Positions 4,409-48,791 of a stretch of DNA of 64,000 nucleotides are shown here, in pieces; position 1 is the first letter of the stretch; each line of letters starts with the position of its first letter. The position numbers were made by a program, and so were the translations under genes. Below the pieces are notes generated by a model, which worked only from the letters and a program-made list of their open reading frames with translations, searched no databases and had not been told where the DNA came from. Source of the stretch: Bacilli bacterium. Its GTDB lineage: Bacteria; Bacillota; Bacilli; RF39; UBA660. Location: contig JAFXSE010000026.1 of the NCBI GenBank assembly GCA_017525855.1, positions 1-64,000 of the forward strand, given 5' to 3'.

Positions 4409-6529
4409 ATGAAAAAGCCTGAATTACTTGCTCCTGCTGGAAATTATGAATCATTAGAAGCAGCACTTCATGCTGGAGCTGATGCTATTTATATTGGACT
4501 AAAACATTATGGAGCTCGTGCTTTTGCAAGTAACTTTACAAAAGAAGAAGTAATATCTGCTATTAAACTATGCCATACATATGGAGTAAAACTTTATGTA
4601 ACCATGAATACACTAATTCATGATAATGAGACGGATGATTTTCTAGAGACAGTCAGGTTCTTACATACTAATGGAATAGATGCTATACTAATACAAGATT
4701 TCGGAATGATGATGCTAGTAAGAGAAACTTTTCCTAAATTAGAAATTCATGCCTCAACTCAATTTAACAATAGTAGTATTGATACATTAAAACTATTAAA
4801 GTCCATTGGCATAAAAAGAGCTGTACTTTCAAGAGAACTTTCACTAGATGAAATTGATAAAATGAAATGTATAGACATAGAAAAAGAAATCTTCATTCAT
4901 GGAGCTCTATGTATAAGCTATTCAGGATGTTGTCTTTTCAGTAGTATGAATGGACATAGAAGTGGTAATCGTGGAGAATGTACAGGATGTTGTAGACTTC
5001 CATATAAACTAAAAGAAAATGGTAAAATAATAGATGAAGGATATCTACTTAGTACTAAAGAATTAAATACAACAAGAAAAGTCAAAGAATTAATTAAAAG
5101 TGGAGTAGATTCATTGAAAATAGAAGGTAGAATGAAATCTAGTTCATATGTTTATTTCATTACAAAACTATATCGCAATTTAATAGATAATTTTGATAAA
5201 GTAGATTTAGATAAAGAAGAAGAAAAATTAAAAGTATTATTCAATAGAGATTTTACATTAGGACACTTATTTAATAAAAATAATAAAGAAATTATAAATA
5301 AAACATCTCCAAATCATCAAGGAAAAATAGTAGGTAAGGTAGTAGAAGTTACTAAAGATAAAATAAAAATAAAACTAGATGAAGTAATACATCAAGAAGA
5401 TGGAATTAGATTTAAAGAAAGTAATAAAGGATTAATTGTAAACTTTTTGTATAATGATAAGAAAAAACTAGTATCTAGTTGTGATAATATTTGTTATATA
5501 AATAATAAAATAGGACTAAAAACTTTGGATACAGTATCATTAACAAGTTCAAAAACATTAGAAAAAGAAATACTTAATTTTGAAAAAAGAAAAGTCCACA
5601 TTAACTTTTCATTAAATGCTCATATAGGATTTCCTTTAAAGCTTAGTGCTAGCGATGGAAAGAATACACTAACTTTAACAGGAAATATTGTAGAAAAAGC
5701 TATTAATAGTTCTACAGATGAAGATAGAATTAAAACCCAACTTTCAAAAACTAATGATACACCATATAAAATAGAAACAATTACCCTAAATTGTGATCAA
5801 AATATCTTTCTACCAATAAAAGAATTAAATGAGTTAAGAAGAAAAATATTAGATGAGTTAACAATAGAAAGATGTAAAGTAGAAACAATAATTGAAAATG
5901 AAGTATCTTTTGAAAAATTAAATATTAATCCAACAAACTATGATACTATCTTAGTAAATAATGAGGATGATTTATTAAAATATAAAGATACATATGATAG
6001 AGTTTACATAACTAAAAAAAATATATTTGACAAATATAAAGAAAAATATAGAAATATATATTATAGTGGAAAAAGAAATCTATTAGATATAGATTATGAT
6101 AGTCGTAATTTAATACATGATATATCTTTTCCTAAAACTAGACTAGATATTTCGGATTATACATTCAACACTTTCAACAAATATACGGTATACTATCTAC
6201 ATAAATTAGGATATCAAACAGTCACATTATCCCAAGAATTAACTCCAACAGAAATAATAACTTTACAAAAAGAATTTATAAACAAATTTCACTTTACACC
6301 TAATTTAGAAGTAATTGCAAAATCAAGAGTAGAACTAATGATTATAAAAGGTAATATTCTAAAAGATAGTAAAGACATTGAATTAATAGATACGAAAAAT
6401 AGACGATTTAAAGTATTATATGAAGATGGCTTTACTCATATTTACAATTATGAAATAAAAGATAAATTAGAATTTTATCAAAATAATTTACATAATATAA
6501 ATATAAGAATAGACACAACATTTATATAA
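4409..6529 (+). CDS. U32 family peptidase-like RNA hydroxylation protein
   Basis: 706 residues. The N-terminal two thirds is a peptidase U32 domain: ELLAPAGNYESLEAA start, GADAIYIGL, HASTQFN, and the Cys cluster region IHGALCISYSGCC...CTGCCRLPY (about residues 163-196). Members of this family, such as E. coli RlhA and TrhP and B. subtilis YrrN/YrrO, hydroxylate 23S rRNA or tRNA uridine/cytidine; the long form with an extra C-terminal region resembles RlhA. Substrate here cannot be decided from sequence. The last 250 residues are more divergent and Lys/Asn-rich. Monocistronic by its promoter, with AGGTGG at 4399-4404. Confidence 0.8.
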   Translation: MKKPELLAPAGNYESLEAALHAGADAIYIGLKHYGARAFASNFTKEEVISAIKLCHTYGVKLYVTMNTLIHDNETDDFLETVRFLHTNGIDAILIQDFGMMMLVRETFPKLEIHASTQFNNSSIDTLKLLKSIGIKRAVLSRELSLDEIDKMKCIDIEKEIFIHGALCISYSGCCLFSSMNGHRSGNRGECTGCCRLPYKLKENGKIIDEGYLLSTKELNTTRKVKELIKSGVDSLKIEGRMKSSSYVYFITKLYRNLIDNFDKVDLDKEEEKLKVLFNRDFTLGHLFNKNNKEIINKTSPNHQGKIVGKVVEVTKDKIKIKLDEVIHQEDGIRFKESNKGLIVNFLYNDKKKLVSSCDNICYINNKIGLKTLDTVSLTSSKTLEKEILNFEKRKVHINFSLNAHIGFPLKLSASDGKNTLTLTGNIVEKAINSSTDEDRIKTQLSKTNDTPYKIETITLNCDQNIFLPIKELNELRRKILDELTIERCKVETIIENEVSFEKLNINPTNYDTILVNNEDDLLKYKDTYDRVYITKKNIFDKYKEKYRNIYYSGKRNLLDIDYDSRNLIHDISFPKTRLDISDYTFNTFNKYTVYYLHKLGYQTVTLSQELTPTEIITLQKEFINKFHFTPNLEVIAKSRVELMIIKGNILKDSKDIELIDTKNRRFKVLYEDGFTHIYNYEIKDKLEFYQNNLHNINIRIDTTFI

Positions 6530-6602: not shown

Positions 6603-7124
6603 GTGGAGAAGAAACAAAAAAACCTAATTAAGAATTATATTATTCTCATTTTGATTTTTCTTACTGTTATATTATTAGTTTGGTATATATGTAAATGGTA
6701 TACTGTATATACTGAATTTGAAAAAGGAACTCCTGTAATAAGAGGAACACTAAATTATGAAATATCAGCAAATGATTTTGACCCGTTTATAATGGAAAAT
6801 CCATCAAGTGTCATTTATATGTGTACATCTAAAGATGAAAAGTGTAGAAGTTTTGAAAAAGAATTTAAAAAATTTGTAATTAGAAAAGATTTACAAAATG
6901 ATATAATATACTTAAATTTGAGTGATACAGATATTGATAGTTTTGTTGAAAACTTTAATGCTAGATATGAGTACAAAGTAAAACTTACAAGTGATTATCC
7001 ATTATTAGTAGAGTTTACTGATGGAAAAGTAACAGGCCTTATTGAAGGGGAAAAAGATGAACCTCTAACTATGACCAAAGTAAAACAATTTATTGAAATT
7101 AATAAGATAGGAAAGACTGAGTAG
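6603..7124 (+). CDS. membrane-anchored thioredoxin-like protein
   Basis: 173 residues, GTG start at 6603 behind AGGTGGTG. One N-terminal transmembrane helix (residues about 10-28), then an extracytoplasmic domain with a thioredoxin-like layout: SSVIYMCTSKDEKCRSFEKEFKKF (Cys pair spaced CTSKDEKC rather than CxxC), a NDIIYLNLSD strand, and YPLLVEFTDGKVTG in the place of the cis-Pro loop. A redox role is inference, since the Cys spacing is not the catalytic CxxC. TATAAT at 6579-6584 is a likely -10. A terminator-like hairpin overlaps the 3' end. Confidence 0.55.
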   Translation: MEKKQKNLIKNYIILILIFLTVILLVWYICKWYTVYTEFEKGTPVIRGTLNYEISANDFDPFIMENPSSVIYMCTSKDEKCRSFEKEFKKFVIRKDLQNDIIYLNLSDTDIDSFVENFNARYEYKVKLTSDYPLLVEFTDGKVTGLIEGEKDEPLTMTKVKQFIEINKIGKTE

Positions 7125-15262: not shown

Positions 15263-15279
15263 AATTGTTGTATTTACAT

Positions 15280-15356
15280 GGCGGCGTTGGTGAAGTGGTT
15301 AACACGCTAGTTTGTGGCACTAGTATGCAAGGGTTCGATTCCCTTACGCCGCCCCA
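15280..15356 (+). tRNA. tRNA-His (GTG)
   Basis: Complete cloverleaf. The encoded G-1 at 15280 pairs with discriminator C73 (15353), the identity mark of bacterial tRNA-His. Acceptor GCGGCGT / ACGCCGC, anticodon stem CTAGT / ACTAG with loop TTGTGGC (anticodon 15314-15316), T arm AAGGG-TTCGATT-CCCTT, and CCA encoded (15354-15356). Confidence 0.97.
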
Positions 15357-15365
15357 TTAAGAAAA

Positions 15366-15393
15366 AACCGAACTTGAAAAAGTTCGTTTTTTT
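15366..15393 (+). terminator. terminator after tRNA-His, probably bidirectional
   Basis: CGAACTT (15369-15375), GAAA tetraloop, AAGTTCG (15380-15386), T run after it and A run before it. It can also end the convergent gene at 15412-16107. Confidence 0.8.
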
Positions 15394-47230: not shown

Positions 47231-47388
47231 TTACAATACCTCCTTAATAAACTACATTTAAAATACCATAATTAATAAAATAAAACAACATTAACAAGGT
47301 AATTTTATGTAAAGTAAGAAAAAAAAGTATATCAACAATTGATAAAAATATATTTTTTTGATATCCTAATAATAGGGAGATAATGTCA

Positions 47389-48759
47389 ATGAGATTTAGA
47401 AGAAGACGAAAAAATAAGTATATGAAAAGACTTATTCTAATGCTTTTAGTATTAGTTAGTTTTTCTGTTGGTTATGCTTATTTAAATAAGTCTTTATCCA
47501 TTGAAGGAACGACAACGGTTGCTAAAACAACATGGAATGTAAGATTTCAAAATATTCAAGTATTTGATAATAATGCAATAGTTGAGACTGCTCCAACACT
47601 TTTAGATAATGCAACTAAGGTAAGTTTTGCAATTAATTTAGATAAACCAGGAGATTCATATGGCTTTACAGTAGATGTAGTAAATAGTGGAACAGTAGAT
47701 GCGAAACTAAGTAGTATATCATTAACAGATGAACTTCAAAATAAAACAAATTATTTAGACTATAGTCTAACTTATATAGATGGAGTAGAAATACAAGAAG
47801 GAGATGCTCTAAAAGCAGGAGAACATGAAACAATAAAGTTTAAAGCTTATTTTAAAAAAGATATAACAGCTAGTGATTTAGAAAGTGATGACACAGTATT
47901 AAATCTAGTTTTAACAGCAACATATTCTCAATCAGATGGGACAGAAGTAGCCGTAAACCATCCAGTAACATGTAGAAAGGCAACAACACTTCATACAGAA
48001 ACATGTAGTAGAACAGATAGTTATGGATGTATAGCAAAAGGATATGCAAATGGGGACACTATAACTTATGGACATACAAATGGAACTAGTCTAGTAAACG
48101 GACAGAGTGGAGGATATGCACTAGACTGTGATGTATCAGGAAATGGAGACTATGAAAGATTCTACTATGTATCAGACTTATATACAGGAACAGAGAATGG
48201 AGTAGATCAGTTTGATAGTAACTATGCTGTATTAATATATCATAAAAATATAGGAACAGCAGTAGCATATAATAGTGCTGAGGAAAACTGGCATGGACCA
48301 GTAACGTTACTGTCAAGTCTTCCAACAAGGAGTACATGGGCAAATGAAAACATAAATTTAAAGAGTACATCAAGAACAATAGTAAATGAACAAGGCGCTC
48401 AAACAACAAATAATGATTCAAATACAATAGAGAATCCATTCAACTATACAGATAGAGTAGCTAGAATCTTAACAACACATGAAATAGATAAAGCATTAGG
48501 TTCAACATCAAGAATAACTAGTGGATATTTAGATAACGCAGAATACCTAATGGAAGATAGTGCTTATTCAAAGGAATCAGGATGTTCAGGAGGAGCATGC
48601 TATTATTGGTTAGAGACACCTCATTCGTCCGCTTCGGCTTATGCGTGGAGCATGCGCGGCCACTACCGCCGCTTGAGCTACGGTTCTGCTTCTGATGCGG
48701 TCTACTGTGGTGCTCGTCCCGCCGTTGAAATTCCAAAAGTAAATATTAGTTTAAAATAG
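47389..48759 (+). CDS. surface protein with TasA/camelysin-like N-terminal region and lectin-like C-terminus carrying a GC-rich variable-looking end
   Basis: 456 residues. ATG 47389 fits GGGAGA at 47375-47380; ATG 47383 is too close. An Arg/Lys-rich start and one hydrophobic signal/anchor (13-31, VGYAYLNKSLSI) resemble SipW-processed TasA/CalY proteins; residues 35-185 look like their beta sandwich. From about 195 a Cys-rich linker leads to a C-type-lectin/FGE-like (DUF6273-type) domain: RFYYVSDLY, NYAVLIYHK, ENWHGP, RILTTHEID, SGYLDNAEYLM, YYWLETP and final CGARPAVEIPK. Residues about 411-447 are encoded by strikingly GC-rich, A-poor DNA, unlike the remaining gene. Probably an adhesin or ligand-binding surface protein; ligand unknown. 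Confidence 0.75.
   Translation: MRFRRRRKNKYMKRLILMLLVLVSFSVGYAYLNKSLSIEGTTTVAKTTWNVRFQNIQVFDNNAIVETAPTLLDNATKVSFAINLDKPGDSYGFTVDVVNSGTVDAKLSSISLTDELQNKTNYLDYSLTYIDGVEIQEGDALKAGEHETIKFKAYFKKDITASDLESDDTVLNLVLTATYSQSDGTEVAVNHPVTCRKATTLHTETCSRTDSYGCIAKGYANGDTITYGHTNGTSLVNGQSGGYALDCDVSGNGDYERFYYVSDLYTGTENGVDQFDSNYAVLIYHKNIGTAVAYNSAEENWHGPVTLLSSLPTRSTWANENINLKSTSRTIVNEQGAQTTNNDSNTIENPFNYTDRVARILTTHEIDKALGSTSRITSGYLDNAEYLMEDSAYSKESGCSGGACYYWLETPHSSASAYAWSMRGHYRRLSYGSASDAVYCGARPAVEIPKVNISLK
48615..48735 (+). other. putative DGR variable region (GC-rich, adenine-depleted 3' end of a CDS)
   Basis: By direct count 48621-48720 has 61 G or C and only 10 A per 100 nt, in a region otherwise near 30% G+C and very A-rich. 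Codons after WLETP are mostly NNC/NNT (CAC TAC CGC CGC .. AGC TAC GGT TCT GCT TCT GAT), as A-to-N mutagenesis of AAC/AAT template codons would leave. It ends with an invariant-looking GC-rich block (GGTGCTCGTCCCGCC) coding GARPA, in the place of an IMH. No template repeat seen in the window. Confidence 0.6.
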
Positions 48760-48762
48760 AAA

Positions 48763-48791
48763 TAGAGAACTTGAAAAAGTTTTCTTTTTTT
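48763..48791 (+). terminator. terminator after the lectin-like gene
   Basis: GAGAACTT, GAAA tetraloop, AAGTTTTC (one imperfect pair), then a long T-rich run. Confidence 0.7.

Follow-up and report, generated by a model that had tools for sequence, protein, structure and literature searches.

A GC-rich, adenine-poor lectin-like tip as a probable remote target of a diversity-generating retroelement in an uncultured Bacilli bacterium

The window analysed here is a 64,000-nucleotide stretch from an uncultured Bacilli bacterium (RF39; UBA660; assembly GCA_017525855.1, contig JAFXSE010000026.1, positions 1 to 64,000 of the forward strand). It carries a gene on the positive strand (47383..48759) whose 3′ segment, at 48622..48723, is probably the variable region of a diversity-generating retroelement (DGR) with its template repeat and reverse transcriptase (RT) elsewhere in the genome. 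The open reading frame, its homologues and a structure model (predicted local distance difference test, pLDDT, 89.5) describe a protein of 458 amino acids comprising an N-terminal anchor, a beta-sandwich stalk and a C-terminal lectin-like domain. A hydrophobic N-terminal helix is modelled at residues 12-34 (47416..47484), with a signal or anchor role suggested by its sequence. The stalk, possibly TasA-like, follows at about residues 50-189 (47530..47949), and residues 195-458 (47965..48756) form a putative C-type-lectin-like, DUF6273-like display domain. The proposed variable region occupies codons 414-447 of this domain and is flanked by constant, AT-rich sequence that is conserved in homologues, namely the codons WLETP on the 5′ side (48607..48621) and the gene 3′ end, encoding VEIPKVNISLK and the stop, on the other (48724..48759).

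The C-terminal domain bearing the variable region is predicted to adopt a C-type-lectin-like fold, with a pLDDT of 96.5 when residues 193-458 are modelled alone. A BFVD structure search returned 780 matches, four of them at E ≤ 0.001, the first being a phage DUF6273 protein. The Pfam DUF6273 profile (PF19789) scored 15.1 bits on the window protein, under the gathering cut-off of 23.5, and was matched at E 0.01 by 46 of 87 aligned homologues; by these profile scores the protein is described as DUF6273-like and is not assigned as a family member. A PHROGs search with the window protein returned no family.

The segment stands out from the rest of the window in composition. Positions 48621-48720 contain 10 A, 32 C, 29 G and 29 T, and a recount thus agrees with an earlier note on this DNA, which had reported 61 G/C and 10 A here. 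In sliding windows over the 64 kb, at least 50 G/C per 100 nucleotides occurs in only two clusters, 48560-48755 (maximum 64) and 15277-15376 (exactly 50), and 12 or fewer A per 100 nucleotides occurs in a single cluster at 48615-48734. The earlier note had placed the island at 48615-48735; the edges fit codons 414 to 446/447 (approximately 48622-48723), slightly inside those bounds. Third positions in codons 414-447 comprise 14 C, 13 T, 7 G and no A (n = 34), while 209 of the 413 preceding codons end in A. The codons had also been described as mostly NNY, which is borne out at the family-hypervariable positions, where 17 of 18 are NNY; for the codons preceding the segment the figure is 173 of 413 (binomial p 4e-6).

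Variation among homologues is concentrated in the same place. The homologue search found 797 proteins, 120 of which were listed, and 103 were aligned with the window protein, excluding gapped columns 440 and 441 of the segment. The ten most variable columns all fall within 414-442 of 458, with column 394 tying for tenth. The residues K, E, Q, M and W, which NNY codons are unable to encode, make up 90 of 1858 residues at the hypervariable columns of the segment. The corresponding counts are 253 of 1974 for the remainder of the domain and 378 of 1475 for the N-terminal part. Common residues at the hypervariable columns include S, Y, D and N. Homologue P0002, 90% identical to the window protein, differs from it at 16 of 30 positions in the segment and 21 of 415 elsewhere (p 1e-11). 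All 16 differences in the segment can be reached with the third base kept, as can 18 of the 21 outside, and this third-base test therefore discriminates weakly. A-to-N copying from AAY codons could have produced this variation, and the short variable region sits at the gene's 3′ end, as in DGR targets.

Since the sequence is of the uncultured, metagenome-type kind, an assembly or binning artefact was considered, however this is barely credible: a sister strain that differs elsewhere (P0001) has the same segment, the contigs involved reach 240,101 bases, and the reading frame is unbroken across both edges of the GC-rich segment.

Several paralogues are mosaics. The window protein is identical to P0005 over residues 233-332 (100/100), with 57/155 identities in the stalk and 10/29 in the variable region, and identical variable regions are found on different N-terminal parts in P0002/P0015 (31/31) and P0005/P0025 (29/29). 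These mosaics are either products of recombination or assembly chimeras. A search with the C-terminus for tips sharing its constant residues returned P0001, P0002 and P0015 only, and no closer homologue of the window protein was found among 391 relatives, with at most four candidates per genome scored. Many matches, in frames of approximately 180-200 amino acids in six genomes (G002, G003, G005, G006, G012 and G022), span only about residues 1-195; these read as stand-alone anchor/stalk proteins that lack a lectin-like domain. The mosaic paralogues, including the shared P0002/P0015 tip, would be expected if antigenic variation of the tip came from gene conversion, with paralogues or silent cassettes as donors and no reverse transcription. 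We consider this very unlikely, as recombination alone leaves unexplained the missing third-position A, the NNY codons and the depletion of K, E, Q, M and W, as well as the adenine-specific mismatches found in relatives.

DGRs are present in related genomes. An RVT_1 protein was identified in seven of 20 relatives' genomes, and a script seeking near-copies found credible template/variable pairs in four of the seven RT regions, with mismatches at template adenines in 21 of 21 cases for L063, 12 of 12 for L059, 13 of 13 for L061 and 17 of 18 for L062. Matches at runs of N in L064 and a tandem-repeat match in L061 (5/6) were dropped as template pairs. Locus L063 belongs to G010, the genome closest to the window by PolC identity among the 20 compared (87%, followed by G005 at 79%). 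It encodes, in order, a target with its variable region at 6042-6149, the template repeat at 6361-6468, a MutS domain I-like protein, a bAvd-like protein and the RT. The bAvd-like protein scored 39.9 bits against a cut-off of 40 and matched the PHROGs family 'Avd protein of DGR' at 1e-13, and the RT carries the IGNMSSQ motif, which is typical of DGR RTs. The L063 target and the window protein are only 29% identical, and the matched N-terminal part of the target is interrupted by one in-frame stop. The small MutS domain I protein (6678-7112; PF01624, 1.3e-8, above cut-off) lies between the template repeat and the Avd-like gene; MutS-like DGR accessory proteins are known. G010-like RTs at E 1e-60 were found in 57 of the 391 relatives (again with at most four candidates scored per genome), including G010, G021 and G022 but not G005, and three of the four genomes assigned to the genus of G010 encode a DGR RT. 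Nearer to the clade of the window, the longest contigs recorded for the DGR-type RTs P0135 and P0182 equal in length those of homologues P0004/P0035 (105,679 bases) and P0023 (27,488 bases), respectively, an indirect hint that RTs and homologues share contigs.

Evidence for writing in trans comes from the same relatives, with the caution that the G010, G021 and G022 contigs are binned and strain mixing is possible. Over seven variable regions in these three genomes, 142 of 157 mismatches fall at template adenines. G010 contains two templates (L063, L202 and L203), and these pair with variable regions across contigs. Next to the second template, on contig C27, is a variable region that fits the C21 template (27 adenine and two other mismatches), and the counterpart of the C27 template is a variable region on C41 (15 adenine mismatches and one other). 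Two G021 regions gave 20 adenine and five other mismatches, and 22 and four, against the template of their own genome, and 22 of 24 and 24 of 25 at adenines against the G010 template. This better fit to the G010 template indicates that the true G021 template was probably not found.

The template-written regions in relatives have a composition like that of the window segment. Templates range from 0.42 to 0.48 in GC and 0.34 to 0.38 in A, and clearly template-derived variable regions from 0.51 to 0.60 in GC and 0.14 to 0.20 in A, in gene bodies with a GC of around 0.31-0.34. Across all fetched loci there were 50 similar C-termini. In 16 of these, no more than one codon of the variable stretch ends in A, including the window (0/29), L001 (0/35) and all three template-matched variable regions; 19 are indistinguishable from their own gene body (p > 0.05) and the remainder are intermediate. 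The 19 show that the same domain without writing has ordinary codon use, and the compositional island is a mark of DGR writing. Codon alignments share the constant codons TGG, CGC and CGT CCC, with NNY elsewhere. L001, related to the window gene at 61%, shows the same island (GC 0.59 versus 0.31); its contig is binned with an archaeon (Methanobacteriaceae) and is probably misbinned. Base composition taken alone would permit a GC-rich piece that came in by horizontal transfer or was shaped by codon choice, with ordinary positive selection acting on the tip. This is highly improbable given that the island follows the DGR signature, that so many similar C-termini use normal codons, and that the differences from P0002 are so heavily concentrated in the segment.

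Within the window, tblastn with a relative's proteins detected no homologues of the DGR RT, Avd-like or MutS-like proteins above chance. When the window was scanned for template repeats with tolerance at adenines, only A-rich chance matches of approximately 16-21 identities in 60 came up. The two methods agree with the previous statement that the 64 kb hold neither RT nor template, and no self-repeat in the window would serve as one. Seven other proteins scanned in the window are core chromosomal proteins (NusA, IF-2, GlmS, MurG, FtsZ, RNase J and PolC) and an eighth, of 65 amino acids, had no match at E 1e-20, such that the window looks like bacterial chromosome rather than phage. Immediately after the stop codon, on the positive strand, is a possible hairpin with a GAAA loop followed by a T-run (48764..48785), identified by eye and with a folding z of -1.8. 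No terminator was predicted at this position, and a role as terminator or homing hairpin is weakly suggested.

A number of results weigh against a DGR target with a remote template. The adenine-tolerant scan of 198 fetched loci (1.14 Mb) passed 12 segments and no full-length template. No template was found in a DNA search of 386 family genomes (two candidates scored per genome), where the highest-scoring matches fell mainly within the AT-rich 3′ tail of the query sequence, nor for the window segment among plasmids and phages. In viral contigs, one search matched a pattern at four stretches, none of them a relative, and another gave no exact match. These searches were partial, above all that of the 386 genomes. 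The G010 gene L210 has a window-like tip with the signature, and no template for it was found in the G010 bin. No DGR-type RT was found in the bin of the congeneric genome G005 despite its many paralogues, its sole RVT_1 match being a 628-residue frame that resembles an intron maturase. The sister-strain protein P0001 has no differences in the segment and two in 426 positions outside; rapid change is not evident in this pair. Fold matches were modest, as Foldseek against the PDB returned no match at E ≤ 0.001 for either the whole model or the domain alone. Separately, the 1.2-Mb G005 bin contains 37 matches to the window protein (L006, L009, L012-L016 and others).

The identical segment in P0001, the L210 signature and the apparent shuffling of target modules among paralogues would also suit a relic, in which the segment was DGR-written earlier, or recombined in from a written gene, and no longer varies, the template and/or RT having since been lost. 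P0002, however, bears a wholly different residue set at exactly these positions, indicating an exchange that is recent relative to change in the gene as a whole, and the frequency of DGR RTs in the genus of G010 also counts against loss; we regard a relic as unlikely, though the most probable of the alternatives. As no template was found in the searched sets, a remote target is what we infer for this genome, with a relic possible.

The 3′ position, predicted fold, local hypervariability, NNY codons and DGRs in congeneric genomes all fit the proposal, made in the earlier note, of a DGR target with a lectin-like fold. We infer that the genome has, or recently had, a template and an RT acting in trans, and that the tip serves as a ligand-binding site; action in trans is suggested by the lack of both within approximately 48 kb before the gene and 15 kb after it, together with the trans pair in a relative. 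In the proposed mechanism, a transcribed template repeat would have AAY codons for exposed residues and be poor in adenine elsewhere, and the RT with an Avd-like partner would copy it, placing random bases opposite its adenines. The resulting cDNA would take the place of the 3′ segment of the gene, so that approximately 16-18 side chains would vary at the lectin-like tip that the anchored protein displays on the cell surface. Recurrent overwriting would stamp the composition of the template onto the segment, which would account for a GC-rich, A-poor island without third-position A inside an AT-rich gene. More speculatively, and with less chance of being correct than not by some way, the chromosome may hold a repertoire of anchored stalks, possibly fibre-forming and TasA-like, with interchangeable lectin tips that are written genome-wide from a few trans-acting templates and, once written, moved from stalk to stalk by recombination. 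If true, this would be a two-layer surface repertoire (mutate, then shuffle) with a logic comparable to immune receptor diversification.

The target extends remote chromosomal DGR targets, already known, to an uncultured low-GC Bacilli-type lineage; our literature search found no DGR paper for this lineage and none linking DGR and TasA. A 3′ island without third-position A in an AT-rich gene is a candidate marker for DGR-written tips, usable even where the RT and template are on another contig. In published surveys, multi-target DGRs are common (28.6% of 948; PMC6642488), variable regions are systematically tied to C-type-lectin folds where annotated, and the survey making this observation used a method that would itself miss remote targets in fragmented assemblies (PMC8144416). 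In a reconstituted BPP-1 DGR, AAC codons became mostly Tyr, Ser and Asp (PMC12875486).

Remote DGR targets have been described in Treponema denticola (PMC4891356) and in cyanobacteria, where 76 were reported (PMC7517822). As with the window gene, these are chromosomal C-type-lectin-fold genes located off the RT/template locus with a 3′ variable region; the window gene differs in its low-GC uncultured Bacilli-type host, its beta-sandwich stalk and its strong GC-rich, A-poor island, and in being known from the target gene alone. The phage tentaclins and other DUF6273 DGR targets likewise carry the variable region on a DUF6273-type domain resembling a C-type lectin (PMC10743442), however those are phage receptor-binding proteins, whereas the window gene has a core chromosomal setting, an N-terminal anchor and a DUF6273 score below cut-off. 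A further comparison is the G010 DGR at L063. Its template is not that of the window gene, the constant codons being WLGS...GVRP in G010 and WLETP...GARP in the window, but the two have in common their genus-level lineage by PolC, their target architecture and their compositional island.
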